Source: Betaproteobacteria bacterium
GTDB taxonomy: Bacteria; Pseudomonadota; Gammaproteobacteria; Burkholderiales; Burkholderiaceae_A
DNA length: 64,000 nt
NCBI GenBank assembly: GCA_016868305.1
Contig: VGHK01000007.1
Coordinates: forward strand, 1-64,000
Direction: 5' to 3'
The notes beneath the pieces were generated by a model that was not told the DNA's origin, searched no databases, and saw only the letters and a list, made by a program, of their open reading frames with translations. Below, piece after piece: positions 5,381 through 54,568 of the stretch; the first letter of the stretch is position 1, and each line of letters starts with the position of its first letter. Both the position numbers and the translations under genes were made by a program.

Positions 5381-6432
5381 ACCAAGGCTTTTGTCTTGCA
5401 GATAGGCAAATCGGAGGGGAAGCCCCCTGCTTCATCGTTGCAGAGATTGGAGCAAATCATGATGGTGATCCAAAGCGCGCGATGGAACTTATCGAAATGG
5501 CTGCTGCCGCTGGTGCAGACGCCGTAAAGTTTCAGACCTACTCCGCTTCGGAATTAGTGGCGGATCCAGAACGCGTGCTCAATTGGGGGCGTGAGGGATA
5601 TGAGCGTGAGGAGACGATAGGTTCTTTGTTTGACAGACTCGCCTTACCGCGAGAAGCTCACAAAGACCTTTTCGATTTCGCAAAGTCGAAGGGCCTGATA
5701 GCCTTTTCAACTCCTTTTAGTCTGGACGGCGTTGACTTTCTAAATGATTTAAACGTACCGCTCTGGAAGGTCGCGTCATCCGATGTCCGGGATAAGCGAC
5801 TGTTAGATCATATCGCCAGCAAAGCCAAGCCAGTTATTCTGTCTACTGGCAAGTCGCTCCTGCAGGAAACCGCTCGAGCGGTCGACATTCTGCGATTCCA
5901 TAAAGTTCCATTTGCTGTTCTTCATTGCCTCGCTCAGTACCCCGCACCAATGGAGGAGGTTTGTTTGTCGACGATTCCCGCCTTCAAGGGTATTTTTCCA
6001 GATGCGGTTATCGGTTTTTCGGACCACACTATCGGAATCACAGCTGCGCTAGGTGCTGTAGCGCTAGGAGCGAAGATTCTAGAGCGGCATGTCACCTATG
6101 ACGAAGGTGCTGAAGGTCCAGACCACTGGTTTTCTTCCCCACCAGAGGAGTTTACGCAGCTTTGTCAAGAGATTCGGCGTTTGGAGGTTGCCATACGCGG
6201 GGTGCGAACTGGGATACTCCCCTCGGAGGTACGAGAGCGTGAAGTGTCAGTTAGATCACTGGTTTTGCGAGTAGGCTTGAAAGCGGGCGACTGCATTCGG
6301 CCCGAGCATCTTGAGGCCAAGCGTCCAGGCTATGGTATCGATCCTTTTGATGCGGACAAGATCATAGGAATAATGGTGCCTAGAGACCTTCCCGGCGGAT
6401 CCATTCTTACCTGGGAGGCGCTGAAGCCTTAA
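5365..6432 (+). CDS. pseI: pseudaminic acid synthase / NeuB-family synthase (start refined to ATG 5365; overlaps upstream stop)
   Basis: FIVAEIGANHDGDPKRAMELIEMAAAAGADAVKFQTY NeuB signature; C-terminal SAF-like domain. Confidence 0.88.
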   Translation: MQTLLNQGFCLADRQIGGEAPCFIVAEIGANHDGDPKRAMELIEMAAAAGADAVKFQTYSASELVADPERVLNWGREGYEREETIGSLFDRLALPREAHKDLFDFAKSKGLIAFSTPFSLDGVDFLNDLNVPLWKVASSDVRDKRLLDHIASKAKPVILSTGKSLLQETARAVDILRFHKVPFAVLHCLAQYPAPMEEVCLSTIPAFKGIFPDAVIGFSDHTIGITAALGAVALGAKILERHVTYDEGAEGPDHWFSSPPEEFTQLCQEIRRLEVAIRGVRTGILPSEVREREVSVRSLVLRVGLKAGDCIRPEHLEAKRPGYGIDPFDADKIIGIMVPRDLPGGSILTWEALKP

Positions 6433-10506: not shown

Positions 10507-12189
10507 CTATAATCTGGGGGGATTTGGTATCTCCACACAGTCCGTTGCTGCGTTCAAATCGGTTAAGCCTTCCGCAATCGAGCATAGGTCAGGAATTCTT
10601 TCTGAGAATCTCGATCCGTGCATAGGTGCCAAAACGATATTATTCTTAAACCACAAAGATCTGTCCGAATCTGACCCCATCATCGTCCAAGATTTGCCTT
10701 GCACGGTTAAAACGGGGGCACCTATTGACGCAGCCATCCTGAGTGGGGCGGTATTGACAGAAATTACCAAGTCCAAGCATGCAATCAAGGAGAAAACCCT
10801 GTCTAGTTGGTTTTTTTGATCCAAGTCGTCCCATCTTATAATTTTAACGCCATGACTTTTCTCGACTTCTTGAATTTCAGATTCGCAATCCCCATACTGC
10901 AAGGAAACCACATGAAGTTTATCGCTCTTAAGCATCGGCAACCAGTCTTCCAGTGCAGAATAACTCAGATTTCTTACAGGACTAAGTTTACCGCTTCTCC
11001 AACAAATTCCAACAAGAGGACGATCTCTGTAGGGCTTAAGCCGTTTAGTAAAATCAGCCATTAACGTGTCTGAGGGAATCAAGTAGGGCTTCGACCTGCT
11101 GAAGCTCTCAATCGTTGGTCGAAAAATCCGCATAAGAGACCCTAATGGAATGTGGTAGTCGAAGTCACAAATGGCTGGTCTACCAGTTGAAATCAAAAAC
11201 GACTGCTCTCGAACAAAAAAATTCGGGAAGCTTCTCGAAAATATATCAACAAGCCTTTTGTCAGTTTCAAGAATAATCGCCTCAGAATCTAACGACTCTA
11301 ATTCGGGCAAACAACTACCAAACAGGAGTTCATCGCCCAACCCTTGCTCCCGCCACACTAAAAGTCTTTTCTTCTTCAATGATTCACCTCTCCACTGGGG
11401 AACTGAAAAATTCCTTTTTGGAGACCGTGCACCAGTAAGGGGGACCATGGGACTGAAGCCGCCCTCATAATAGTCCCAACCTTTACTTAAGTTACCCATT
11501 TTCAAATACTCAAAACTACAAAAAAATCTAATTGCATCTGCCCTTTGCTTTTCCCTTTCAGGTATGAGTGAAATTGTTTTTTCATACATTTTTACAGAGT
11601 TCTCCGGAGATCCTAAGCGGGCTTCTAGCGCTGCTAGGTTGATGAGTGTGTCAATCTGGTTCGGTTCGAGTATTGCTGCTGTTTCATATGCGTGTTTCGC
11701 CTCCTTAAACATCGCCAGTTCAGACAACGCTGACCCCAGATTGTTAAATGCAAGTGCTGAGGTGGGCTCTATGGAAACAGCTTTCAAGGCACTGTCCAAA
11801 TTGCCCTGCAGATCGCCCAAAGCCTGAAATACGCCCCCCAGATTTACATAAGCATAAAGACACTTGGGGTCTAACTCGATTGCATACTGCAGTATTACTT
11901 TAGCATCGTGAGGCTTCCCGGCCCTATAAAGAGCGCCACCCAGGTTACTCAAAGCAATAACGTGCCTTGGCTCAAACTCGAGAACCTTGGCGAATGCCTT
12001 GGTAGCGTCTTCGAACCGCTCAAGTTGCATTAAGCAGTGTCCGAGATCTATCCAGGCAACAAGATCCTTTGGGTGGGTTTTTAGGTACGCAGCAAATGCT
12101 TCTGCTGCTTGAGTGTAATCTCCCCTTTCCCTAAGCTGGTAGGCTTGGGTCTTTAGACGAGGTTCTTTCTGAAAGCGTTTAAAGTTCAT
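10507..12189 (-). CDS. TPR-repeat protein with C-terminal GT-B-like glycosyltransferase domain (FlmG-like flagellin glycosyltransferase candidate)
   Basis: at least five TPR units (e.g. VAWIDLGHCLMQLERFEDATKAFAKVLEFEPRH) then LLVWREQGLGDELLFGSCLPEL...RPLVGICWRSG...DLVISVNTAPLRMAASIGAPVLT; directly downstream of fliC. Confidence 0.8.
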   Translation of the reverse strand: MNFKRFQKEPRLKTQAYQLRERGDYTQAAEAFAAYLKTHPKDLVAWIDLGHCLMQLERFEDATKAFAKVLEFEPRHVIALSNLGGALYRAGKPHDAKVILQYAIELDPKCLYAYVNLGGVFQALGDLQGNLDSALKAVSIEPTSALAFNNLGSALSELAMFKEAKHAYETAAILEPNQIDTLINLAALEARLGSPENSVKMYEKTISLIPEREKQRADAIRFFCSFEYLKMGNLSKGWDYYEGGFSPMVPLTGARSPKRNFSVPQWRGESLKKKRLLVWREQGLGDELLFGSCLPELESLDSEAIILETDKRLVDIFSRSFPNFFVREQSFLISTGRPAICDFDYHIPLGSLMRIFRPTIESFSRSKPYLIPSDTLMADFTKRLKPYRDRPLVGICWRSGKLSPVRNLSYSALEDWLPMLKSDKLHVVSLQYGDCESEIQEVEKSHGVKIIRWDDLDQKNQLDRVFSLIACLDLVISVNTAPLRMAASIGAPVLTVQGKSWTMMGSDSDRSLWFKNNIVLAPMHGSRFSERIPDLCSIAEGLTDLNAATDCVEIPNPPRL

Positions 12190-12200
12190 ACTCGGAAAGT

Positions 12201-12216
12201 AGCATGGAGCGTGCCA
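12201..12216 (-). promoter_or_regulatory. sigma54 promoter TGGCACG-CTCC-ATGCT for the TPR/glycosyltransferase gene
   Basis: GG-N10-GC; one mismatch to TGGCACG-N4-TTGCW; 12 nt between C(-12) and ATG. Confidence 0.75.
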
Positions 12217-17843: not shown

Positions 17844-20800
17844 CTAACGAATACCAATAATCGCGTCAAACAAAGTGCTGGCCGTCTGCATCACCTTGGC
17901 ACTGGCCTGGTAGGCCTGCTGAAACCGAATCAGGTCGGCAGCCTCTTCGTCTAGGCTTACCCCCGAGACCTTGTCGCGGGCCTGCACGGCCTGGTCTTTT
18001 ACGACCTCAAGTGCTTTTTGGGCGATGCTGGATTGGAAGGCCAGGTTTCCAATATTGGTAACCGTCTGGCCATAGGCATCGGACAGCGTGCGGCTCTCGG
18101 CACCGCCGACAATCCGCGCGTTCTGTAGCTCGGCGATACGAATCATGTTGGCGTTATTGCCAATGCCATCCACGTTGCCGTCTACTGCAAAACGATCACC
18201 AGCCAATGGTGGCCTGTTTAGAAATAGCGTGGTACCCCGGTAGCCAATGCCAAGTTGGGGGTCGTACTGACGGTCTGCCACAACACTGCCGGTATTGCGA
18301 TCAACAATCTGGTATCGGCTATTGCTGGTAAAGACCACCTCAAAAGGTTCGGCACGCAGAGCCGCCACTGCATCCAGGCTGCCGGGCCGATAGGTGGCAC
18401 CAAGCCTAAAGCTAGCCCCAAGGTCTGGGCGCTGGGTAAGGTCGTCTGGGTTGGGCACATGGGTAAGCGAAGAAAAAACCAACAGGTCTTCCTTTACCGT
18501 GCCGCTGACATACACCCCGGTGCGAAAGCCTAAGCTTGCCAGGTTGGTGGTAAAGCCAGCACTGCCCAGACCTATCCGCACCTGCGAATCGGCCCGCTCG
18601 CCATCAGGCACAAACTCACGGGTAACCGAAGTCATGGTAACCCCTGCTGTACCCAGGTTTGAAAGGGTAAGGTCGCGTACGTTGCCCGCCCCTGGAGAAG
18701 ACCGCACGGTAAGCGTGCCATCAAGGTTCAAAATGAATTCGCGCTGCGACCCGGTAAGAGACGAACTGCCGTACTCGCGCTCAAGGGCTCTTTTTACGGC
18801 CTGGGCGATATCTTTGGCGGGAGTTTCGGCAAGCACCGCGACCCGCACCCCGCCAATCTCAATCTCACCATTGCCAATTGCATTTGAGAAGCTTAGGGTC
18901 TGCTCCTCACCCTGGCCCAAGAGGGTTTGGCGAAACCGTAGGCTCTGAAAAGGCTGTTCGTCTGAGTCTGTGAAAACACTCACCGACCCGTTGGGGTTCA
19001 CGACGCGATCCACATCGAGCTGCAAAGCGATTTCCAGCCCACGAAAATCGCGGGTGGTGAGGTTCATAAAAACCCCAGTGTCCGTACCTGGTGTTCCGAC
19101 AGCAGACGAGAAACCAAGATTGGTCACATTACCAAGGGCTGTCGCAAACCTTACGGTAAGGCTTCCATCCGCGCCCACATCCAGCCCAATGCCCTGGGCG
19201 TCATAGCCCAAGCGTTCAAGCCCCGCGTAATTTTCGGTGCGCGTGCGGAGCGCCTGGGCTACCTTGTTTGCTACCTGTAAAGAGGAATCCCCTTGGGCAA
19301 CCGCTACATCCACGTCGCCAACCCGAATACTGCCCGCAGCCGTAGCAGGCCCAAACCGCAGAACCTGCTGCTCACCCACGCCGAGACTGCCCTGGCTCGC
19401 GGGGTCTCTTGTCAGACGACTGGAAATACCGGAGTCGGCCGAGCTCACCTGAATGGGACCTCGGGCAGTTTCGGTGAGGGCAAACTCAATCAGCACCTGT
19501 CCATCATCAAAGGCCTGCACATGCCGGCCCTTAAACGATGCAAAGTCAGCATCGTTACCAATCGCATTGGCAACCTGCTGGGCAACCTCAGACGGGGTGG
19601 CGCCAGCGGCAATCGTAAGGTTTAAGGTCTTGTCTGCCCCCCCGGCCGTAATGCCAGGCAAAACCAGACTAAGCGTGCCATCGCTACCAATCCCAGAAAA
19701 ACTGAGGGTCTGCTGCTCGCCTCGGCCCCAGGCGGGCTGCGCATGTATCCAGGCCTGAAGGTGCTCGGCCTTAATACGAAACGCTCCTGGATTACCAGGG
19801 TCTGGCGCCGGAAGGTTTTCCACCGAAACCTGCCTACGAATCAGCCGCCCCTCACGGTCGGTGAACTCGGTAAACAGGGTTGGAACGGAGTTCACCTGCT
19901 CGAGCCTTAATGCGCCCAGGGGCTGGCCGTTTAAGGTTAGGGCGCCTTCCTGGTAGATTGCTTCCCCAGGTACTGCGGTCTGAATGCCGATGCGGCCAGA
20001 AAGAATCTCTGCTGGAATGCGCTCGATACTGCCAAAGACATGGTCTTCATTGAGCCGGGGCACCTCTTGCACCGAGGCCTTCACACCATAAAAGAGCTCC
20101 ATGCCCTGGTACGACAGTTCGTCTGCAGCATTAAGGTACTGCGTGGAGTAACTGGCCCCGGGCTCAAACGACACACCTGCTAGGCGCGCCTGGGTCATAA
20201 ACTCCTCGCCTGCCTGGTCTATGAGGGACTGACGCTCCTCACGGGTAAGCGCACGACCAAGGCTCTGTTCGGCCTGGGCAATGCGCAGATCCGCCAGCTG
20301 CCGGCCCAAAAGATGTCGGCCATCGCGTGTGAATACCTGTAGGTCAATAGGCTCACCATTAAGGTCGCCGAGATAAAGGCTGGTATCTGCATAGCCTGCG
20401 GGAATTATCGATATCGGGGTGGGACGAATGCGGTCAAACCGAATCGCCTGATCTACCAGGCTATTGTTGTCTAGTACCGTGCGGCCATCGTCTGACACCA
20501 CCCGGTCGAGCCAGAGGCTGCGGTCTTGGGCATAGTCTTGGGGGGTCTCAAACAGCCGGGCCCCGGCCCCGCTGGGATTAAACTGGTTTTCAATCACCCG
20601 AAACCGGGCGGCAGCGGCAATACGATTAGGGTCTTCAATGGCCAGTCGAATTCCCGCAGCGGCGTTATTGCCAATATTCAAAAATAAAATCTCACCATCC
20701 CGCGGGCTTCCGGAGAAATTAATCTTGATACCGTTAATCTCTGCAGAGCCCACACCCGTGGCCGAACGCCCCGTAACCGTGTCAGTAACGGTCCATTGCC

Positions 20801-22301
20801 CTCGGGTTTCCAGGTTGTCAACACGGGCTGTCGAGACACCATTAACCAGACGAAATGACAAGTTGTAGGCACCCAGTACGGGGCTGGTAACGATCAGCCC
20901 AGCGTCTACCCCGGGCTCCACCGCAAGCTGCCGACCAAAGGCGCCTTCAAGCGAGGCCTGTCCGGTGCGGTAATAGTCGGCAAGCTCCTCGGGGCTAAGC
21001 CGCTGTCCACCTTCCAAAAAATTGCGCAGCTGCTGCTGTACCTGTGGCAGTTCAAGCACGGTGCCTGCACTAAGGGTCTCGGTAACGGACACGGCGCCCG
21101 ACAAGACCAATGCCTTACTGAGCCCATTAAGGGTAACGACAATCTGGTCACCGACCCGAAACTCTCCAGATAGGCTAAGGTTATTTACCTGGCCTGAATT
21201 GGCCTGGTAAGAAAGCTGCAGGCTATTGGCAGAAAAGTCATCAACGGTCTTAAGGCTTGCCGCCACTACCGCCTGGGTCTCACCGACTGCGGGAGTTACC
21301 GTAAACTGCGGATCCACCGAAAAAACATCCTGGCCATTGCGGCCCTGAAGGTCTATGCCCTCACGGTGTATCGCATTTACCTCACGAATCACCACCTTGG
21401 CAAGGTCGTTAAGCTCATTGACAACCGGCTCTAGTAGCTGGCTGCGAAAGCCCATCAGGCCTGCGATGGCACCCCCGGTAAAACCGGAGACAATCTCGGC
21501 ATTAGAGACGCCCCGATTGATCACCAGATCAATCTTTCCTGCCTGGGCATTGCTAAAAACCGTAGATACTGGTCGGCTTACCTCGTTCTCCACCAAAACC
21601 CCAGCGGTATTCGACGACCCAATGCGAACTGTAACGACCCCACTACTAGACTCAGACACGCGAATCTTGGCAAGCTCAGCCATCTCACGTAGCACCTGGT
21701 CACGCTGGTCTAAAAGGGCTGGGGGCTGACGCTCCAGATACTTGGTCTTCAAAAGCTGGGTATTTATCTGCGCCAACTGAGAAGACAGGTTGTTAAGCTT
21801 ATTAACGTTTGTTGCAATCGCCTCACGGCTTTCTTGTTCCACCAGCTGAAGCTGACCCTCAAGTGTCTGAAAACGGCTGGCAAGCCCCTCGGCCTTACTC
21901 ACAAACTGGCTGCGCAGTATTAATGAAGAGGGGTCGGAAGACAGCTGGCGGGCCGCATCGAAGAACTGGTCAAAGGCGGAAAGCAGGCCCACGTCTTCGC
22001 TGCCCATAATGTTGACCACCCGATTGGCATAGTTCAGCAAAGGCGTCTGAGTGCCAAGCTCGGTTGTCGCATCGCGCAGGCTGTTCTCAATGAACTCATC
22101 ATAGAGTCGGCGAACCCCGGTCATTACCACCCCTGTACCCAGATAGGTCGTGGCCTGCTGGCGTGGAGCCCCCTCTATAAGATTGGCCTCCTGGCGGCTA
22201 TAGCCAACACTGCCCACGTTGGCTATATTGTTTGATACCACCCCCAGGGCACGCTGATAAACCGAAACAGCGCCACTGGCAATCGATACCAAGTCGCTCA
22301 T
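17844..22301 (-). CDS. flgK: giant flagellar hook-associated protein FlgK (1485 aa)
   Basis: N-terminus LVSIASGAVSVYQRALGVVSNNIANVGSVGYSRQEANL and C-terminus VSGVSLDEEAADLIRFQQAYQASAKVMQTASTLFDAII. Confidence 0.95.
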   Translation of the reverse strand: MSDLVSIASGAVSVYQRALGVVSNNIANVGSVGYSRQEANLIEGAPRQQATTYLGTGVVMTGVRRLYDEFIENSLRDATTELGTQTPLLNYANRVVNIMGSEDVGLLSAFDQFFDAARQLSSDPSSLILRSQFVSKAEGLASRFQTLEGQLQLVEQESREAIATNVNKLNNLSSQLAQINTQLLKTKYLERQPPALLDQRDQVLREMAELAKIRVSESSSGVVTVRIGSSNTAGVLVENEVSRPVSTVFSNAQAGKIDLVINRGVSNAEIVSGFTGGAIAGLMGFRSQLLEPVVNELNDLAKVVIREVNAIHREGIDLQGRNGQDVFSVDPQFTVTPAVGETQAVVAASLKTVDDFSANSLQLSYQANSGQVNNLSLSGEFRVGDQIVVTLNGLSKALVLSGAVSVTETLSAGTVLELPQVQQQLRNFLEGGQRLSPEELADYYRTGQASLEGAFGRQLAVEPGVDAGLIVTSPVLGAYNLSFRLVNGVSTARVDNLETRGQWTVTDTVTGRSATGVGSAEINGIKINFSGSPRDGEILFLNIGNNAAAGIRLAIEDPNRIAAAARFRVIENQFNPSGAGARLFETPQDYAQDRSLWLDRVVSDDGRTVLDNNSLVDQAIRFDRIRPTPISIIPAGYADTSLYLGDLNGEPIDLQVFTRDGRHLLGRQLADLRIAQAEQSLGRALTREERQSLIDQAGEEFMTQARLAGVSFEPGASYSTQYLNAADELSYQGMELFYGVKASVQEVPRLNEDHVFGSIERIPAEILSGRIGIQTAVPGEAIYQEGALTLNGQPLGALRLEQVNSVPTLFTEFTDREGRLIRRQVSVENLPAPDPGNPGAFRIKAEHLQAWIHAQPAWGRGEQQTLSFSGIGSDGTLSLVLPGITAGGADKTLNLTIAAGATPSEVAQQVANAIGNDADFASFKGRHVQAFDDGQVLIEFALTETARGPIQVSSADSGISSRLTRDPASQGSLGVGEQQVLRFGPATAAGSIRVGDVDVAVAQGDSSLQVANKVAQALRTRTENYAGLERLGYDAQGIGLDVGADGSLTVRFATALGNVTNLGFSSAVGTPGTDTGVFMNLTTRDFRGLEIALQLDVDRVVNPNGSVSVFTDSDEQPFQSLRFRQTLLGQGEEQTLSFSNAIGNGEIEIGGVRVAVLAETPAKDIAQAVKRALEREYGSSSLTGSQREFILNLDGTLTVRSSPGAGNVRDLTLSNLGTAGVTMTSVTREFVPDGERADSQVRIGLGSAGFTTNLASLGFRTGVYVSGTVKEDLLVFSSLTHVPNPDDLTQRPDLGASFRLGATYRPGSLDAVAALRAEPFEVVFTSNSRYQIVDRNTGSVVADRQYDPQLGIGYRGTTLFLNRPPLAGDRFAVDGNVDGIGNNANMIRIAELQNARIVGGAESRTLSDAYGQTVTNIGNLAFQSSIAQKALEVVKDQAVQARDKVSGVSLDEEAADLIRFQQAYQASAKVMQTASTLFDAIIGIR

Positions 22302-22853
22302 TTATTTGAGCGCCTTAAAAGGGTTGGGGTCAATCGGCAGGCTTGCAGGCCGCACTGGCAGGGCAATACCGGCTGCTGGGCTCGGGGCTGCGCCCAGAGG
22401 CAGGCCTTGGTTATCGGTTACCCCAAGTCCATAGGTCTTTCTCTCAAGCCGCATAGGCTTGGTTGCGCCAGGTGCCTCTAGCCGCCTTTGGTTCAATACC
22501 TCTGCGGCAGACTGTTGCCGCTCCAGATTACTAACCAGCATGTCGGCAATACCGACTGCGCCACGCTTGGCCATCTGTAGCGATATCTCGCGGTCGAACA
22601 GAGCCTCATAGGTTTCTGTAGTGGAGTCATTGGTGAGTTCATCTTTTTCAATCGAGGCCCGCATCGACTTCAGCATCTCTTGGATGAACAGGGCCTCAAA
22701 CTGCTCGGCTGCCTTGCGCAGCGCTGCCTTCTGACCCGCCTGCGCTGCCGGGGCATCGCCTACCGTGCCACCAGGCACCGCCGAAGCCTCCCTACGCGCC
22801 TGGGCCTTGAGGCTCTGCAGGCTATCGAAGTCGAAGGCGGATTTTACGTCCAT
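22302..22853 (-). CDS. flgJ: FlgJ rod-scaffold domain protein (no muramidase domain)
   Basis: AAEQFEALFIQEMLKSMRAS...EALFDREISLQMAKRGAVGIADMLV. Confidence 0.92.
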   Translation of the reverse strand: MDVKSAFDFDSLQSLKAQARREASAVPGGTVGDAPAAQAGQKAALRKAAEQFEALFIQEMLKSMRASIEKDELTNDSTTETYEALFDREISLQMAKRGAVGIADMLVSNLERQQSAAEVLNQRRLEAPGATKPMRLERKTYGLGVTDNQGLPLGAAPSPAAGIALPVRPASLPIDPNPFKALK

Positions 22854-25710: not shown

Positions 25711-25726
25711 AGCAAGCTTCTTGCCA
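25711..25726 (-). promoter_or_regulatory. sigma54 promoter of the flgG operon: TGGCAAG-AAGC-TTGCT
   Basis: one mismatch to consensus; GG-N10-GC. Confidence 0.85.
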
Positions 25727-26697: not shown

Positions 26698-29600
26698 TTA
26701 GCTCCGGATGTTAATAATGGCCTGGGTCAGGGTGTTATTGGTCTCAATGGCCTTGGCATTGGCCTGGAAGGCCCGCTGTGCGGTAATGAGGTCAATTAGC
26801 TCCTGGGTCAGGTCTACGTTGGCCCGCTCACGAGCACCCGAACGGACCGTACCGAATCCCGCCTTGCCAGGCTCACCAAAGGTAATCAGGCCGGACTTTG
26901 ATGTCGCGTAATAGCTGGCATCACCGATCTGGCGCAGCCCTTGCGGGTTGGTAAAGTTAGAGAGAATAATCTTTGCAAGATTGTTCTGGCTGCCGTTAGA
27001 GTATTGGGCGGTAACCAGACCATCGTCGGCAACATCTAGCCCAATTAAGTCACCCTCGGGACGCCCATTCTGTGTCTGCGCGAGAACGCCAAACGGGCTT
27101 GAAAACTGTGTGGTGCCATCGTAGTTAATGGCAAACTGCAGTGTGGCACCGGTCTCTTCGATGGTGGCGGGTTTAAAGTTGATCGGAACTGCCGGAGAGA
27201 CGAGCTCGCCGCGGTTGCTAAAGGTTAGCTCCCCCTTGTCAAGGAAAATCGGGGCATAGAGATCACGGGCCTCCTCTTCTGAAAACTCGCCTGCCTCGGT
27301 TGTCTCATTGCCATCTCGGTCTACATATAAAGGCACACCGTTGTCATTCTCTGCCTGCGGGGGAGCAATCCAGCGCTCAGTGGTTCCCCTGCCATTGGGA
27401 AGATCTCGCAGTCCCCATATGCTGGGGCCGGAAATCTTCAAGAACGAATCGTTTCCTTCAGTGCCTGTCGTAACTTCCAGACGAGTAATATTCCCCTCGG
27501 TTTTGTATTCAACCTTTACATTAGCAACGGTGCGACCCCGGGAGTCTTCCAGAGAATTAATCCGGTCTTCCAGCAAGCGGCGAAAGCTCTCCTTGGTAAA
27601 CTCTCGGCCCACAGGCAGTTGGATAAGCCCTGTTACGTTGTCTACAGTAACTGTAAATGTGCTGGTTTCGGGGTTAAGCGTAAACTTATTGTCAAGGTTG
27701 ATACCGATCGGGTTGCCTTGAACAATCGCAGGTGTTGACCTCACGCCGCGCAGCGGAAGCCGCTCTACAGGCGTATCCCCAGGCTCAAGCTCAAAGATGT
27801 TCAAAAAATTCAGGTATGCGGCGATACGCGGGTTGTCTGAGGTGCCAGCCTGCCTAGCCTGGGCAAGAGTTTCCGCATCAATCCGCTCTCCTTCAACCTC
27901 GTCAATGCTCAGTGGATCGGCCAACGGCGCCAAGATCGCCACCGACGAACGATCTCCGGTGGTTCCTGAGAAGATGCTAAAGGTGCCAGTCTCGTCGTTA
28001 AACCGCACCCGTATTCCTGTCCGCTGGTCGCTCTGGCCATAGTTGGAGTTGCTTGCGCGGATGGTGGCTCCGTTTGGAATCGCTAGGCCGCCATAGGTCC
28101 CCGATTCAAGATCAATACTGGTCAACTCCCTGCCAAGACCGAAAACCTCATTGACTCGGTTATTGTCAAAGGCGCCAATCCGAAGCTCGGCCTTATTGTC
28201 TGTAGGCGTGATTAGGAAAGTCTGCTTCTCAGCAGAGTAGCGAATCAGAACCCTGGGGCTTCCGTCTTCGTTTACGCCAACGCCACCGGAGCCAAGCTCT
28301 CCATCATCCTCTACTGGATCGCGATTAATTGCCCTTTGCAATAACCGGGTCAGGGTGTCTGTTTTGAGGTCTGCAGGCGGCCGCTCTCCGGGCGCAAGTG
28401 CAATATCGCTAAAGGTCTCATCCTCAAAAACAAATAACCCTGTCTCCTCATCAATATCACCCGCCAGATTCAGAGAAATCTTTGCCTCGGGTTCGTTTCC
28501 GATTCGAATCCGAAGTAGATCATAGGTATCAGGCCGTTCCTCGTCACTTGCTACCAGAGAGTCAAGGTCAAAATACCGCTCGTCTCCGTATGCCTTATTA
28601 ATGCGCGCCTCTAGGATTCGGGAAAGCTCGATACCACTGTATTTGGTGTTAGCCTTTCTTATATCTATTGCACCATCCTCATTGAGAATGAGGTCTGAGA
28701 GGTCTACCCTCACCGGAGACGGAGAGTCATCCACATTCAGCGTTACCTGAAGCCCAGACAACGCGACTTCATCATCAAGGTCATCTAATGCATCTTGGTC
28801 CAGTCCCACAAGGTCTGGGAACAAATAGTGCTCGCCGGCCTTTAGGTTATTCAACTGAACAGGCCCTACCTGACGGCCCACGAACTCCGCTGAGACCGAG
28901 GCCTGCTTGTTTGCCAATCGGTCCAGGTTAAAAAGTTTTGTAACGCCACGCGCGATATCCTGGGGGGGGATTTCCGCCTCAGCCTTGACCTGGCCGTACT
29001 TATTGACAAATAGCTTCTCTCCTGCATTGGACTGCGCCTGAATCAATAGCTCATCAAGCTTTGTATCCCCAATCAATACGTGCGTCTGCCATTTGTTGGT
29101 GGGGTCTTCTGGGCTGGCGCGCTGGGTCTTTACGTAGTACACCGTTGCCAGGTACTCGTTACCGCCCGCGTCAAAGATTGTGACTGCGGTAGTCAGGCCG
29201 TAGGTATTAGGATCACGTGGGTCGAATTTTGTTGTAATCACCGGGGCATCTGCCGGGAGGTTTAGCCCAAATTCGATCTCGGTAGTCTCGCGGGCATCTC
29301 CGTTCGTACTGCGCGGAATCACCAGCTTACGTAGGGTTTCAAGGTCTGCCTTGCCCTGAGAGTCTACGCTTGCCGCCATCAGTGCCTGACCCGCCGAGTT
29401 CACCACCGAAAAGGAGTCATCCAGGATAAACGTTCCGTTGCGGGTGTAGATGTCCTGCAGGCCATCGGCTGACTTCAAAGGAAAAAAGCCGTCACCGGTA
29501 ATGGCAATGTCGAGCACACTGGCAGAGAACTGCAGGTTGCCCTGGCTAAACTCCTGGGTAACCCCCTTGAGCGCAACCCCTTGGCCAATAACTGAGGAGG

Positions 29601-29751
29601 CCTTTTGGAGAGGCGAGGTGGCGAAAATATCGCCAAAGTCGGCCCGAGACCGTTTAAAGCCTGTTGTACCAACGTTGGCAATATTGTTACTGATCACGCC
29701 AAGAGAGGCGGTGGCAGCATTCAAACCAGTAAGGGCGGTATAGAAAGACAT
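26698..29751 (-). CDS. flgE: large flagellar hook protein FlgE (1017 aa)
   Basis: MSFYTALTGLNAATASLGVISNNIANVGTTGFKRSRADF; C-terminus RANVDLTQELIDLITAQRAFQANAKAIETNNTLTQAIINIRS. Confidence 0.95.
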   Translation of the reverse strand: MSFYTALTGLNAATASLGVISNNIANVGTTGFKRSRADFGDIFATSPLQKASSVIGQGVALKGVTQEFSQGNLQFSASVLDIAITGDGFFPLKSADGLQDIYTRNGTFILDDSFSVVNSAGQALMAASVDSQGKADLETLRKLVIPRSTNGDARETTEIEFGLNLPADAPVITTKFDPRDPNTYGLTTAVTIFDAGGNEYLATVYYVKTQRASPEDPTNKWQTHVLIGDTKLDELLIQAQSNAGEKLFVNKYGQVKAEAEIPPQDIARGVTKLFNLDRLANKQASVSAEFVGRQVGPVQLNNLKAGEHYLFPDLVGLDQDALDDLDDEVALSGLQVTLNVDDSPSPVRVDLSDLILNEDGAIDIRKANTKYSGIELSRILEARINKAYGDERYFDLDSLVASDEERPDTYDLLRIRIGNEPEAKISLNLAGDIDEETGLFVFEDETFSDIALAPGERPPADLKTDTLTRLLQRAINRDPVEDDGELGSGGVGVNEDGSPRVLIRYSAEKQTFLITPTDNKAELRIGAFDNNRVNEVFGLGRELTSIDLESGTYGGLAIPNGATIRASNSNYGQSDQRTGIRVRFNDETGTFSIFSGTTGDRSSVAILAPLADPLSIDEVEGERIDAETLAQARQAGTSDNPRIAAYLNFLNIFELEPGDTPVERLPLRGVRSTPAIVQGNPIGINLDNKFTLNPETSTFTVTVDNVTGLIQLPVGREFTKESFRRLLEDRINSLEDSRGRTVANVKVEYKTEGNITRLEVTTGTEGNDSFLKISGPSIWGLRDLPNGRGTTERWIAPPQAENDNGVPLYVDRDGNETTEAGEFSEEEARDLYAPIFLDKGELTFSNRGELVSPAVPINFKPATIEETGATLQFAINYDGTTQFSSPFGVLAQTQNGRPEGDLIGLDVADDGLVTAQYSNGSQNNLAKIILSNFTNPQGLRQIGDASYYATSKSGLITFGEPGKAGFGTVRSGARERANVDLTQELIDLITAQRAFQANAKAIETNNTLTQAIINIRS

Positions 29752-31491: not shown

Positions 31492-31507
31492 TGCAACGCG
31501 CGTGCCA
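31492..31507 (-). promoter_or_regulatory. perfect consensus sigma54 promoter of flgBCDEF: TGGCACG-CGCG-TTGCA
   Basis: exact match to TGGCACG-N4-TTGCW; followed by a normal leader with GAGGAGGGG Shine-Dalgarno. Confidence 0.95.
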
Positions 31508-31608: not shown

Positions 31609-32709
31609 TCACGATGTCCGTGGACGGCTCTGCAAGACCGACTCGGTTGAGAAGGTTGGTAGTGAGAAGTTGGGCAGCAGTTCGGGCATGAAGTCAACAC
31701 GCGCACCCATGGAACCCGGGGCCCGTGCCGCTGCCACTGGCGCAACGGCAGCAGTAGGCGCCTTAAACCCAACCGGGGCTGGCCTTTCTTGGGGTGACAC
31801 GGCCTGCTCTCCGGCCTGCCGTGATAGAGCGAGTGCCTCTTTGGCCTGTTGTTGGGCAAACTGGGTGAGCCTGAGATTGGCATTCTCAATAAGCCCTTTG
31901 CGCAGCGATGCCCGCGTAATGGCATTACTCTGGTGTCCACCCACATGCAGCACCGAGGCCTGAGGCCCGGGAATCGGGAGGGCCTTGTGCATCTGTCGCT
32001 CATCGCGGGCCGCTGGGTACAACACGGTGAGATACAGGGCATCTAAAGAGGCCGGACGATACTGTGCCAGTTGGGTGTCTTTGAAATACCGATCGACCAG
32101 ATCAAGCTGCTCAAGCACCGACATGCCCAGAATCTCTTTTGGGTTCTTGCCGAAGCCCACACTGGCCGCGCCCCGATCGGGACCATCACAGAACTGGATC
32201 ACTCCATGACAATTGCCGTTGGTGGCACGCGGATTAAAACCATCACTTTCAATCAGCCCCACGCGAGCAAAGTCATCAGGCAGAAACTTGTACTCGCGCG
32301 ACATGTCGAGAATTCGTCGCCGTACCTCGGCAACGTCCTCTTCAGGGATGTAGCCCTTAGCCACCGCCCGCTCAAGAGTACGCTCAAGCACCCGATGGCT
32401 GCTCTGGCCCTGGCCCAACCCTGACACTGGGCGAATATCGCTCAGGTCTTGGGGGGGCGGCGCGGCCATCGCTGCGCTGGGCTCTGGCTCTGTTGGGCGC
32501 CCCGCGCCGCTGATGGCGGAAAAATCAATGACCTGACCGGGGAAGATCCGATCAATATTGCTTATCTGGTTTTCATTGGCCACGGTTTGCATCCTTTTCA
32601 TCAAATCTGCAAACGACAAGGACGGCGCCTTACCCGATGGGCTGCTCTGGCCTAAAGCCTGCTGAGTCAGCCGGGTAAGCGTGTCGCCGGGTTGTACCGT
32701 CAGTTTCAT
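31609..32709 (-). CDS. LysM + lysozyme/SLT-like murein hydrolase, candidate flagellum-dedicated transglycosylase (start refined to ATG 32709)
   Basis: MKLTVQPGDTLTRLTQQ...IFPGQVI LysM; VGLIESDGFNPRATNGNCHGVIQF SLT-like catalytic region. Confidence 0.75.
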   Translation of the reverse strand: MKLTVQPGDTLTRLTQQALGQSSPSGKAPSLSFADLMKRMQTVANENQISNIDRIFPGQVIDFSAISGAGRPTEPEPSAAMAAPPPQDLSDIRPVSGLGQGQSSHRVLERTLERAVAKGYIPEEDVAEVRRRILDMSREYKFLPDDFARVGLIESDGFNPRATNGNCHGVIQFCDGPDRGAASVGFGKNPKEILGMSVLEQLDLVDRYFKDTQLAQYRPASLDALYLTVLYPAARDERQMHKALPIPGPQASVLHVGGHQSNAITRASLRKGLIENANLRLTQFAQQQAKEALALSRQAGEQAVSPQERPAPVGFKAPTAAVAPVAAARAPGSMGARVDFMPELLPNFSLPTFSTESVLQSRPRTS

Positions 32710-32720
32710 GGCAGAGGCTA

Positions 32721-32736
32721 AGCAGGGTCTGTGCCA
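32721..32736 (-). promoter_or_regulatory. sigma54 promoter of the LysM/SLT gene: TGGCACA-GACC-CTGCT
   Basis: GG-N10-GC, two mismatches; 12 nt between C(-12) and ATG. Confidence 0.7.
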
Positions 32737-32761
32737 TAAAGAGCCCATACCATGGGTAAGT

Positions 32762-32777
32762 TGGCACGAAGACTGCT
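32762..32777 (+). promoter_or_regulatory. sigma54 promoter of flgA: TGGCACG-AAGA-CTGCT
   Basis: GG-N10-GC, one mismatch; 11 nt between C(-12) and ATG 32788. Confidence 0.8.
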
Positions 32778-32787
32778 ACTGCGGGCT

Positions 32788-33657
32788 ATGAAAAAGATTT
32801 CAGGCACCTATCGCTTCTTCCCATGGCCGAGGCATGCCCTGTCTGCTTTGGCTGCCCTGTCTGCTCATTCGGTCCTGTCTGCCTCTTCGGCACTTGCCTC
32901 ACAGCCCTCCCTGGGTGCTGAGCTTGCCTGGCTCGAAGACGAGGCCCGGCAATGGGTGGTAAAAACCTATGGCATCACGCCGCAGTCAGTTGGATTCGCC
33001 CCGATAGACCGACGGATTGCTATTACACCCTGTCCAGAGGCGTTGGCCATTGATGCGCCCTTTGGCGGCACCAAGACCGTTCGCGTACGGTGCGCATCAG
33101 ATCTATCCGAAAAATGGCAGGTGTTTCTGCAACGTACCGATCCAGGCGCCGATGCCAAAGGCTCGAGGCATGGCTCAGCACAACAGACACAATACGGCAA
33201 GGTGACGGTGCGATCGGAGTCTACCGCTTCGCAGGGCAGGCCCGCCGCGCCCACCCCACAGGCAGAAACCCAGGCAATGATGGTAGTTGTGGCGAAGCTA
33301 AACCTAGCGGCCGGCCAGGCCTTGGAGCCCGGGGCCTTTGCACTGGAATCCCGAACAATTACGGGGAACCCCGGCAATTACTTTCTGCAGGCCGATGGGC
33401 TGGAGTTCTCCGAGCTCGTGCGCAATGTGAAGGCCGGAGACCCGATTCGGCAGCGTGACCTCAAAAAGGCACTGCTTATCCGGCGTAATCATTTGGTTCA
33501 GTTTTCACTTTCCAACGCTCCCGGGCTTCAGGTATCGTTGCAACTGCAGGCCATGGACGATGGTCGAATTGGCGACCAGATCAGGCTTAAAAACCCCGAT
33601 TCGGGCCGCGTGCTTACGGGCTTGGTGGTTGGGCGCAATATGGTTCGGGGGCTTTAA
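32788..33657 (+). CDS. flgA: flagellar P-ring chaperone FlgA (start refined to ATG 32788)
   Basis: LNLAAGQALEPGAFALESRTI...VRNVKAGDPIRQRDLKKALLIRRNHLVQ...LKNPDSGRVLTGLVVG (SAF domain). Confidence 0.92.
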   Translation: MKKISGTYRFFPWPRHALSALAALSAHSVLSASSALASQPSLGAELAWLEDEARQWVVKTYGITPQSVGFAPIDRRIAITPCPEALAIDAPFGGTKTVRVRCASDLSEKWQVFLQRTDPGADAKGSRHGSAQQTQYGKVTVRSESTASQGRPAAPTPQAETQAMMVVVAKLNLAAGQALEPGAFALESRTITGNPGNYFLQADGLEFSELVRNVKAGDPIRQRDLKKALLIRRNHLVQFSLSNAPGLQVSLQLQAMDDGRIGDQIRLKNPDSGRVLTGLVVGRNMVRGL

Positions 33658-38835: not shown

Positions 38836-40014
38836 GTGAGTCTTGACTCTTTAATCGGGCAGAGCGCCGCGATCTTGAACCTTAAACGGTTGATCGGGTC
38901 GGTCGCCCATTCCGACGCCACGGTTTTGGTCATTGGGGAAAGCGGCACCGGCAAAGAGCTTGTGGCGCGTGCCCTGCATGACCACTCTGGCCGAAAACAA
39001 GCACGTTTTGTGCCCGTAAACTGCGGTGCCATTCCCCGCGACCTGATCGAAAGCGAGCTCTTTGGCCATCGGCGCGGTGCCTTTACCGGGGCAATCTCTG
39101 ACCGCACGGGCCGTTTTGAGCTTGCCCAGGGCGGCACGCTGTTTCTCGACGAGATCGGCGATCTGCCGCTCGACATGCAGGTCAAGCTTCTGCGGGTGCT
39201 CCAAGAGCGCAGCATCGACCCTGTGGGCTCAAGTAAGCCCATCGATATCGATGTCCGGGTGGTCGCCGCAACCCACAAAGACCTGGAGGCTGAGGTTGCA
39301 GCCGGCCGGTTTCGGGAAGACCTGTACTACCGGCTCAATGTGCTGCCGCTTACTACCCCGCCACTGCGTGACAGGCCAGAAGACATCGAAACCTTGTGCC
39401 AGTTCTTTTCCCAGGTGCATGCTCATGCCCAGCACGGATCGGTGCGGTTAACGCCGGTGCTGCTCGGGGCCCTGCAGTCCTATCTCTGGCCGGGCAATAT
39501 CCGTGAGCTCTCGAATCTAATCGCCCGGTTTAGCGCGCTCTTTGCTGGCCAGTGCATCTGTTACCCAGATATTCCGCAGGTGATGCTGCCCAAGGGGCTG
39601 CGCGACCTGCAGCCAGAAGGCGCAGCTGCCCAGGTGGCCGCTACCGAAAAAGCACCCCCGGTCTACCGTGATGGCGCCGTACCTGTCTCGCAGCCTGGGC
39701 CAGCTAACAACAATACTGCAAAGGCCTCTGCCAACGGCAGCGAATTTAGCCCCAGTGAATTCAATCCCATTGATGACCTGATTGCCCTAGCCCAGGGATC
39801 ACCTCTACCGGCCCTTGATGCAATTCCGCTCAAAAAACGCATTTCTGACATTGAAAAAGCCCTTATTGAGCAGGCGCTTACTCAGGCGGACGGCAATGTG
39901 TCACAGACTGCGCGGATCCTGAACATTCAGCGCACCACGCTAATAGAAAAGATCAACAAATACGGGCTGAAGTTTCAGGCCGAAGACCCGATCTCTACTA
40001 CTAGGGATCACTAA
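38836..40014 (+). CDS. sigma54-dependent transcriptional activator without N-terminal regulatory domain (AAA+ + Fis HTH; GTG start)
   Basis: GESGTGKELVARALH Walker A, GAFTGA loop, C-terminal ALTQADGNVSQTARILNIQRTTLIEKINKYGL HTH. Confidence 0.93.
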   Translation: MSLDSLIGQSAAILNLKRLIGSVAHSDATVLVIGESGTGKELVARALHDHSGRKQARFVPVNCGAIPRDLIESELFGHRRGAFTGAISDRTGRFELAQGGTLFLDEIGDLPLDMQVKLLRVLQERSIDPVGSSKPIDIDVRVVAATHKDLEAEVAAGRFREDLYYRLNVLPLTTPPLRDRPEDIETLCQFFSQVHAHAQHGSVRLTPVLLGALQSYLWPGNIRELSNLIARFSALFAGQCICYPDIPQVMLPKGLRDLQPEGAAAQVAATEKAPPVYRDGAVPVSQPGPANNNTAKASANGSEFSPSEFNPIDDLIALAQGSPLPALDAIPLKKRISDIEKALIEQALTQADGNVSQTARILNIQRTTLIEKINKYGLKFQAEDPISTTRDH

Positions 40015-52573: not shown

Positions 52574-54322
52574 TTACGCCCAGACATCTAACCGGCCGTC
52601 ATCTAGTCGAGATGACTGAGACGCACCCGTTACAGCCTCTGCAGAAGAATCCTCTGCTAAGGCCTGCTGGCCTGAACCATGTCTGCCCGAAGACGACTGC
52701 CCACCGGACTGACGACGATCCTGCTGACCCACCGAAAGCGAAGCAACGTCCATGCCATTGCGCTCGAGTGTCTCGCGTAGTCTTGGCAGGCTTTCCTGCA
52801 AAAGCTCGCGCGTGCTCGCCTGGCTGGCCTTGATCGATGCCTCGATTTCACCCTTGCGAAGTTCCAGTTCAATACGTATCGACCCCAGATCGCCAGGCTC
52901 AAGGTCTAACTCTACCCGCCAGTTTCCCTGACTCACCTGCTGGAGCAGTCTCTGACCGAGTAACTCACCGAATCGTTGCATGACCTGCTGGGGAAGTCCG
53001 CGCGCCTGACCGGACTGGGCATTGGCATCGGGCCTACCGCCCTCGGCGCCCCCGCTCTGCCCGCCAGGGCCCATACCAGACCCCAGCGATGCGGCCGAGG
53101 TGCTAGCTGCCGAAGACAGCCCCGACGTCTGCGGAGTTGTCCCATCTAGGCCGACGCCCGCGGCCGCTTCAGGCTGCTCAAGAAGGCTGATGGATTCAAG
53201 CCGGGCCCACTGCGACTGGCCATCCTGCGCTGCCCGAAGTGCCTCGGGCCCAAGAAGCTTCATCAGGCGCTGCTTCACCGAGAGGTTGGCAAAATCAAGC
53301 CTTAAGGTCACCCCCTTTTCGGGAAAGCTATCTTTGCCGGTACCTTCAGGGGCTAGCCCAACCACTTCTATGGCTGCTTGGGGTGGTCCTGGATCCGCTT
53401 TCGGGAGGCTCGCGGGCGAGCCTACGCTTTCGCCGGTTCGGGACTGAACCCAGGCGCTGGTGGCTAGCGGCTGGGCCACGGCAGAGTCGGGCGTTGAACC
53501 CGTTACCGCGAAGGCAGTCGCTCCAGTAGTGGTTAAACCGCTTGGGCCATGGATGCCCGGGCCACTGGGCCCACTAGGGCCAACCGCGCCCGAGCCAATC
53601 GGGGACTGTCCCTGAATTCCCTGGCTAGATGAATGATCTGACAATGTGGGGCCGTTGGCGCCCGACAAAAGAGGAACGGGAGACATCAACCCAGCAAGCC
53701 GATGATGGCTGGAAGTCATCGGCGGAGTCTCATTAAATTCCGGCGCCGCGGTCAGCGACTGCAGTGAACCAGACAGGACGGGGCTTAGTAACAACGGGAA
53801 TTCCTCTGGATGGGTCTCTACATCACCCTCTCCATCGGGCGATACCCCTATGAATCCATTCTGGGAAGCAAGTAGCGCGGCAATCGAGGCCTCATCTAAC
53901 TCGGCCTCCCGGGCAAACCGCACCAGGTCTTCTTCTGCCAGGGGGGGTCCCGCGGTAATGATCTGGGTTGCCCTCCCGATCTGCAGACTGCGCAGGGGTT
54001 CGAGCCCATGGGTTGGGCCTTCGCGTCCTTCGGAAGTTTCAGGATTTCCAGACCCTTCAGGATCAGGCCCTTTCAACGTTTTGGCCGTAGCAGCGCTACC
54101 CCCCTCGTGCCCCTCAGTCGCCGTTTTTTCGGCCGATGCGGGCACACCACCGGCAGGTTCTTGCCGCATCTGTTGCCCAAAGACGCGGGCAAACAGCCTT
54201 CGAAACTCTGCCGCCTGAGGGTCGGCAGAAGGCGGGGCTTTCGGCAGTGAAGCCGCACCGCCTGTTGCATCTGGCGTAGCAATTACCGACAAAGAATCTA
54301 GGTGCGAGGCTGAGATACCCAT
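52574..54322 (-). CDS. fliK: flagellar hook-length control protein FliK (start refined to 54322)
   Basis: C-terminal GNWRVELDLEPGDLGSIRIELELRKGEIEASIKASQASTRELLQESLPRLRETLERNGM. Confidence 0.9.
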   Translation of the reverse strand: MGISASHLDSLSVIATPDATGGAASLPKAPPSADPQAAEFRRLFARVFGQQMRQEPAGGVPASAEKTATEGHEGGSAATAKTLKGPDPEGSGNPETSEGREGPTHGLEPLRSLQIGRATQIITAGPPLAEEDLVRFAREAELDEASIAALLASQNGFIGVSPDGEGDVETHPEEFPLLLSPVLSGSLQSLTAAPEFNETPPMTSSHHRLAGLMSPVPLLSGANGPTLSDHSSSQGIQGQSPIGSGAVGPSGPSGPGIHGPSGLTTTGATAFAVTGSTPDSAVAQPLATSAWVQSRTGESVGSPASLPKADPGPPQAAIEVVGLAPEGTGKDSFPEKGVTLRLDFANLSVKQRLMKLLGPEALRAAQDGQSQWARLESISLLEQPEAAAGVGLDGTTPQTSGLSSAASTSAASLGSGMGPGGQSGGAEGGRPDANAQSGQARGLPQQVMQRFGELLGQRLLQQVSQGNWRVELDLEPGDLGSIRIELELRKGEIEASIKASQASTRELLQESLPRLRETLERNGMDVASLSVGQQDRRQSGGQSSSGRHGSGQQALAEDSSAEAVTGASQSSRLDDGRLDVWA

Positions 54323-54552: not shown

Positions 54553-54568
54553 TGGCATACCGGTTGCT
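54553..54568 (+). promoter_or_regulatory. sigma54 promoter of flhA-flhF-flhG-fliA operon: TGGCATA-CCGG-TTGCT
   Basis: GG-N10-GC; two mismatches. Confidence 0.75.

Follow-up and report, generated by a model that had tools for sequence, protein, structure and literature searches.

The 64-kb window, meaning the whole stretch of DNA that was analysed, contains a flagellar gene cluster of a bacterium placed in the Burkholderiales by way of named relatives; its 2.26-Mb assembly consists of 97 contigs and is 97% complete. Within this cluster, flgA, which encodes the P-ring chaperone, and a LysM/lytic-transglycosylase-like gene are oriented divergently. Their start codons are separated by 79 bp, and this gap is taken up by a back-to-back pair of entire sigma54 promoters (Table 1). 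RpoN is encoded in the genome (PF04552, 1.2e-62 in a profile search), and the cluster itself carries a sigma54 activator lacking a receiver domain, while FlhC has no detectable match in the genome. Other products of the cluster include a very large FlgE-like hook protein (26698-29751, 1017 aa), a similarly very large FlgK-like protein (17844-22301, 1485 aa), and a FlgJ (22302-22853) that consists of the rod-binding domain only, without the muramidase.

Table 1. Genes and promoter elements, in window coordinates unless a contig is named; distances are counted from the -12 C to the ATG, and SD energies are in kcal/mol.
Feature	Position	Strand	Remarks
LysM/lytic-transglycosylase-like gene	31609..32709	-	ATG 32709 at predicted +2
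flgA (P-ring chaperone)	32788..33657	+	Pfam ChapFlgA 3.1e-22; ATG 32788 at predicted +1
sigma54 -24/-12 promoter of LysM/transglycosylase gene, TGGCACAGACCCTGCT	32721..32736	-	16-bit-class weight-matrix site
sigma54 -24/-12 promoter of flgA, TGGCACGAAGACTGCT	32762..32777	+	16-bit-class weight-matrix site
Small inverted repeat, CCCATGGTATGGG	32744..32756	.	Between both promoters; spacer not conserved
TPR/GT9-like gene adjoining flagellin fliC, predicted leaderless	10507..12189	-	sigma54 site at 13
Third sigma54 promoter of short-spacing kind, TGGCACGCTCCATGCT	12201..12216	-	13 bases to ATG
CP-ATP-grasp gene with sigma54 promoter, window genome	G000:C16:25648-25677		13 bases to ATG (genus loci L123-L132)
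sigma54 promoter of flgB, leadered	31492..31507	-	46 bases to ATG; SD -12.5
sigma54 promoter of flgG, leadered	25711..25726	-	45 bases to ATG; SD -6.4
sigma54 promoter of flhA, leadered	54553..54568	+	77 bases to ATG
sigma54 site inside 3' part of fliK	52742..52757	-	Strong; 193 bases before fliL ATG; SD -6.4
sigma54 activator	38836..40014	+	AAA+ domain PF00158 and Fis-type HTH (HTH_8); inside flagellar cluster

The N-terminus of FlgA, as read from the sequence, resembles a signal peptide. The product of the opposite gene lies beside flgBCDE and has no evident signal peptide. It matches a LysM domain at 19.4 bits, just under the cut-off, and the lytic transglycosylase 9udh at E=0.002, with an ESDG-NP motif that is kept in homologues; this protein may be a separate flagellar wall-cutting enzyme. 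M1-K2 and the GDT motif are invariant in 4/4 aligned homologues, and use of a later ATG would delete the LysM motif, in line with the view expressed in the initial annotation that a later start is unlikely.

The two promoter sites, whose coordinates and sequences had been given exactly in that annotation, fit the pattern GG-N10-GC with a TGGCAC / TTGCW-like context. In an approximate sigma54 weight matrix, for which a strong site was defined as at least 15 bits, the two sites score 16.6 and 16.1 bits. Seven sites reach this threshold in the window, compared with 0.6 expected from first-order Markov simulations, and the five others precede flgB, flgG, flhA, fliL (within fliK), and the TPR gene adjoining fliC. 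A loose consensus with 2 mismatches is not enriched in the window, giving 82 matches versus 76 by chance, and the claim therefore rests on strong or conserved sites. It is extremely improbable that the pair represents chance matches in G+C-rich DNA, since despite the chance-level frequency of the loose consensus, strong sites exceed expectation and relatives retain both sites at the same place and on the same strand. No sigma70-type promoter passes a scan of the intergenic region, and the best sigma70/sigma28 matches near the pair are weak.

The position of these promoters relative to the start codons is the central observation. On the LysM side, the -12 C lies at 32722 and the A of the ATG at 32709, a distance of 13 bases; on the flgA side, the corresponding positions are 32776 and 32788, a distance of 12 bases. 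In sigma54 promoter numbering, this C is position -12, which puts the predicted +1 on the A of the flgA AUG itself and, on the LysM side, on the nucleotide that directly precedes the AUG. Moreover, the earlier statement that neither gene has a Shine–Dalgarno (SD) sequence agrees with anti-SD pairing energies of -1.1 and +0.7 kcal/mol before the two ATGs, whereas leadered sigma54 genes of the same genome reach -6.2 to -12.5 kcal/mol. The exact anti-SD pattern of the 16S 3' end was not found in the assembly, where the rRNA is probably missing. Folding of the first 45 nt of the mRNAs revealed no clear pattern.

Genomes of three other species in the genus contribute four more copies of this divergent pair: one each in G003 and G008 and two in G004 (G004a and G004b). 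Loss of the promoter/ATG spacing in close relatives had been named in the initial annotation as a refuting observation; instead, the distances for flgA/LysM are 13/13 in G003, 14/14 and 14/13 in G004, and 13/14 in G008. This spacing is kept at only 35-46% identity of FlgA and about 60% identity of the LysM protein to the congeners, and when the copies are aligned, invariant columns are essentially confined to the -24/-12 boxes and both start codons. The spacer separating the -24 boxes is variable, ranging from 25 down to 6 bp. Several congener sites, at 12.2-13.6 bits, are weaker than the window pair, and the lysM gene of G003 is an exception in having an SD-like GAGAGGGG before its ATG (-6.4 kcal/mol). 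The second LysM copy of G004 (G004b; L053:3105-3614) is frameshifted, and the two locus versions in this genome possibly reflect a strain mixture. A public assembly titled Bordetella parapertussis (L064) is apparently the congener contig G003:C40 (12306 bases), and its title looks misnamed.

Conservation also bears on the proposal that longer mRNAs arise from upstream sigma70 or sigma28 promoters and are translated from earlier ATGs, which would place the sigma54 sites inside coding frames. In the window genome, in-frame ATGs do exist at 32752 for flgA (36 nt upstream) and at 32748 for LysM (39 nt upstream), both of them upstream of the predicted transcription start. They are not conserved in relatives, however: in G004a lysM and G004b flgA, a stop in frame lies 9 nt ahead of the ATG and no other start follows it, and in G008 flgA and G004b lysM, the next upstream stop is reached without an intervening start. 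Together with the weakness of sigma70- and sigma28-like matches and the constant M-K start of the LysM protein, this makes longer messages quite improbable. FlgA of G008, for its part, could start later.

Other sigma54 promoters serve as internal controls. Orthologous leadered distances in the genus are 46, 41, and 37 for flgB, 45 and 60 for flgG, 77 and 77 (G008) for flhA, and 100 and 111 for motA, and an SD is present at nearly all of these leaders (37-111 bases). G008 also has a sigma54 site within a long ORF near flhA (L063:19556), similar to that in fliK. Promoter and leader counts at the genome level refer to 459 kb of stretches from the window genome. In these, sites of at least 15 bits with a credible gene nearly all lie either 12-13 bases from the ATG without an SD (flgA, LysM, TPR) or 41-193 bases from it with an SD of -6.2 kcal/mol or better; the site at C1:140135 has an ATG at 33 bases, no SD, and no clear gene. 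Across the genus, 32 sigma54-gene pairs, which were gathered by hand and are neither a random sample nor independent where orthologous, include 13 at 12-14 bases, none at 15-27, and 19 at 28 or more. The median SD energies of the short and leadered classes are -2.2 and -6.4 kcal/mol, respectively (p=2e-5), and the coincidence in spacing, if counted by gene family, has a probability of only about 1e-3. The empty interval suggests two workable states, one leadered with an SD and the other leaderless.

The initial annotation had described a designed pair of leaderless sigma54 messages as unusual. The promoter arrangement is confirmed, but this description was too narrow, as at least two more genes of the genome share that arrangement. 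One is the TPR gene beside fliC, for which no clear orthologues were found in the genus. The other is a CP-ATP-grasp gene, whose sigma54 site is conserved in 8/10 genus members at distances of 54 (G001, G002), 28-33 (G004, G005, G006, G010), and 13 bases (window genome, G003). Leaders of 28-33 bases contain an SD-like stretch, whereas the 13-base cases have no clear SD, and the series offers a natural view of a leadered gene turning leaderless. Additionally, 8 genes, compared with about 1.9 expected, have a TATAAT-like hexamer whose first base is 12-15 nt ahead of the first ATG. In these genes (contigs C1, C2, C4), which judging by their N-termini probably include glmM, pgsA, rppH, hemA, and purL, the box is followed after 6-9 nt by the first ATG and no SD is found, so leaderless genes of the sigma70 type are likely in this genome too.

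In the short-spacing class, the start codon is ATG in 13/13 cases, and it is preceded by a pyrimidine in all 13. Among leadered sigma54 genes a pyrimidine occupies this position in 8/19 (p=6e-4), and among SD-led background genes of the genome in 114/155 (p=0.04). This is modest evidence, which fits a Y/R initiator with transcription starting on the A. It also bears on whether transcription begins a few bases earlier and yields leaders of 1-5 nt without an SD, a sub-case of the leaderless reading. Such near-leaderless messages would agree with the distance of 13 bases at LysM and of 14 in some relatives, with the known variation of sigma54 starts by a base or two, and with C. jejuni sites located 8-13 nt from the start (PMC3847290). 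The pyrimidine at -1 favours the A of the AUG as +1, modestly so when set against the genome background, and the version with very short leaders appears somewhat unlikely. A caveat applies to flgA, where a transcription start at C+13 would clip the AUG, which is sited at 12.

The prediction that flgA and LysM/transglycosylase mRNAs start at the AUG or 1-2 bases ahead of it draws support from the kept spacing of 12-14 bases, from the lack of an SD and the constraint on the start codons, and from a genome that encodes both RpoN and an activator. This reading of the sequences, which upholds the earlier suggestion that each message begins on the start codon or about 1 nt ahead of it (to which the in-frame stops of some relatives add support), is very probably correct. 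In the proposed mechanism, sigma54-RNA polymerase would remain on each -24/-12 pair in a closed complex until acted on by an activator that uses ATP. The AAA+/HTH protein of the cluster is the candidate, and probable, activator of both promoters. Once triggered, the polymerase would initiate on the A of either start codon or 1-2 bases ahead of it, and the resulting leaderless mRNAs would be read without SD pairing. The same design may serve the TPR gene and the CP-ATP-grasp gene. In effect, the genus probably has a class of flagellar genes under tight control whose messages lack a leader and a ribosome-binding site.

This arrangement resembles the sigma54 flagellar promoters of Vibrio, Pseudomonas, and Campylobacter in its -24/-12 elements, rpoN, an AAA+ activator within the cluster, and middle-gene targets, but differs from them in that the ATG follows the -12 C at 12-14 bases, congeners included. 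To our knowledge, sigma54 flagellar promoters drive leadered mRNAs as a rule. Leaderless mRNAs, with the AUG at the 5' end and no SD, have been described in C. jejuni and H. pylori (PMC3847290), S. meliloti (PMC3616915), and C. metallidurans (PMC7563307). Leaderless mRNAs account for 4.67% of the primary starts in the last of these, Cupriavidus metallidurans, another member of the Burkholderiales (PMC7563307), and leaderless genes of B. japonicum show a TGnTA motif (PMC4842269). Those of C. jejuni have a sigma70 -10 box, and within the Epsilonproteobacteria their leaderless status shows poor conservation (PMC3847290). Leaderless genes in the cited studies are linked to sigma70-type promoters and show poor conservation between species; the present pair has sigma54 promoters, and its predicted leaderless state is kept on both genes in four congeneric genomes. 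A literature search confined largely to papers outside subscription journals found no description of sigma54 leaderless genes. Leaderless mRNAs and sigma54 promoters are each well known, and the novelty would lie in their predicted combination, by which the most strictly gated mode of bacterial transcription, dependent on an activator and ATP, would be coupled to the simplest mode of translation start.

The purpose of the tight spacing is a separate matter, on which opinion can be evenly divided. The spacing may have no regulatory value and may simply reflect compaction in a small genome that is already able to translate leaderless mRNAs, an explanation compatible with the mechanism above. Genomes of the genus measure 1.3-2.3 Mb, leaderless genes of the sigma70 type also seem to occur, and relatives have face-to-face promoters in the same gap. 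Against compaction, other sigma54 promoters in the cluster keep their leaders, and the ATP-grasp and TPR genes are predicted to be leaderless yet have no divergent pair of this kind. A more ambitious regulatory reading, which we consider doubtful, is that a genus-wide class of activator-gated, AUG-first mRNAs (flgA, transglycosylase, TPR, ATP-grasp) operates within the flagellar programme, that leaderless translation forms part of that programme, and that the abutting promoters, whose -24 boxes are 6-25 bp apart, block or assist one another and so fix the ratio of the pair.

In relation to origin, an order-wide habit of short spacing was considered and rejected. Across 300 Burkholderiales genomes, the distances that separate strict sigma54 sites from the ATG that follows show no peak at 12-14, and among the 150 matches listed, 16 fell there, near the 14.5 expected. 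A genus-wide pattern peak at 13 (12/36 matches) was also dropped, as most of the matches examined lay inside genes or had no ORF. The flgA/LysM-transglycosylase pair is also present in Limnohabitans, Comamonadaceae, and similar Burkholderiales assemblies (L066-L071). These loci contain the same genes, and where sites occur on both strands, the sigma54-like sites face each other; long leaders and an N-terminal extension of the LysM protein also set them apart from the window genus. The lack of an order-wide peak and the leadered, face-to-face organisation of these relatives suggest that the short-spacing design is lineage-specific and derived. With face-to-face sites (L066-L070, about 5690-5790), each transcript would cross the promoter of the other, and in some of these loci the likely flgA ATG adjoins or overlaps the -12 region of the opposing promoter.
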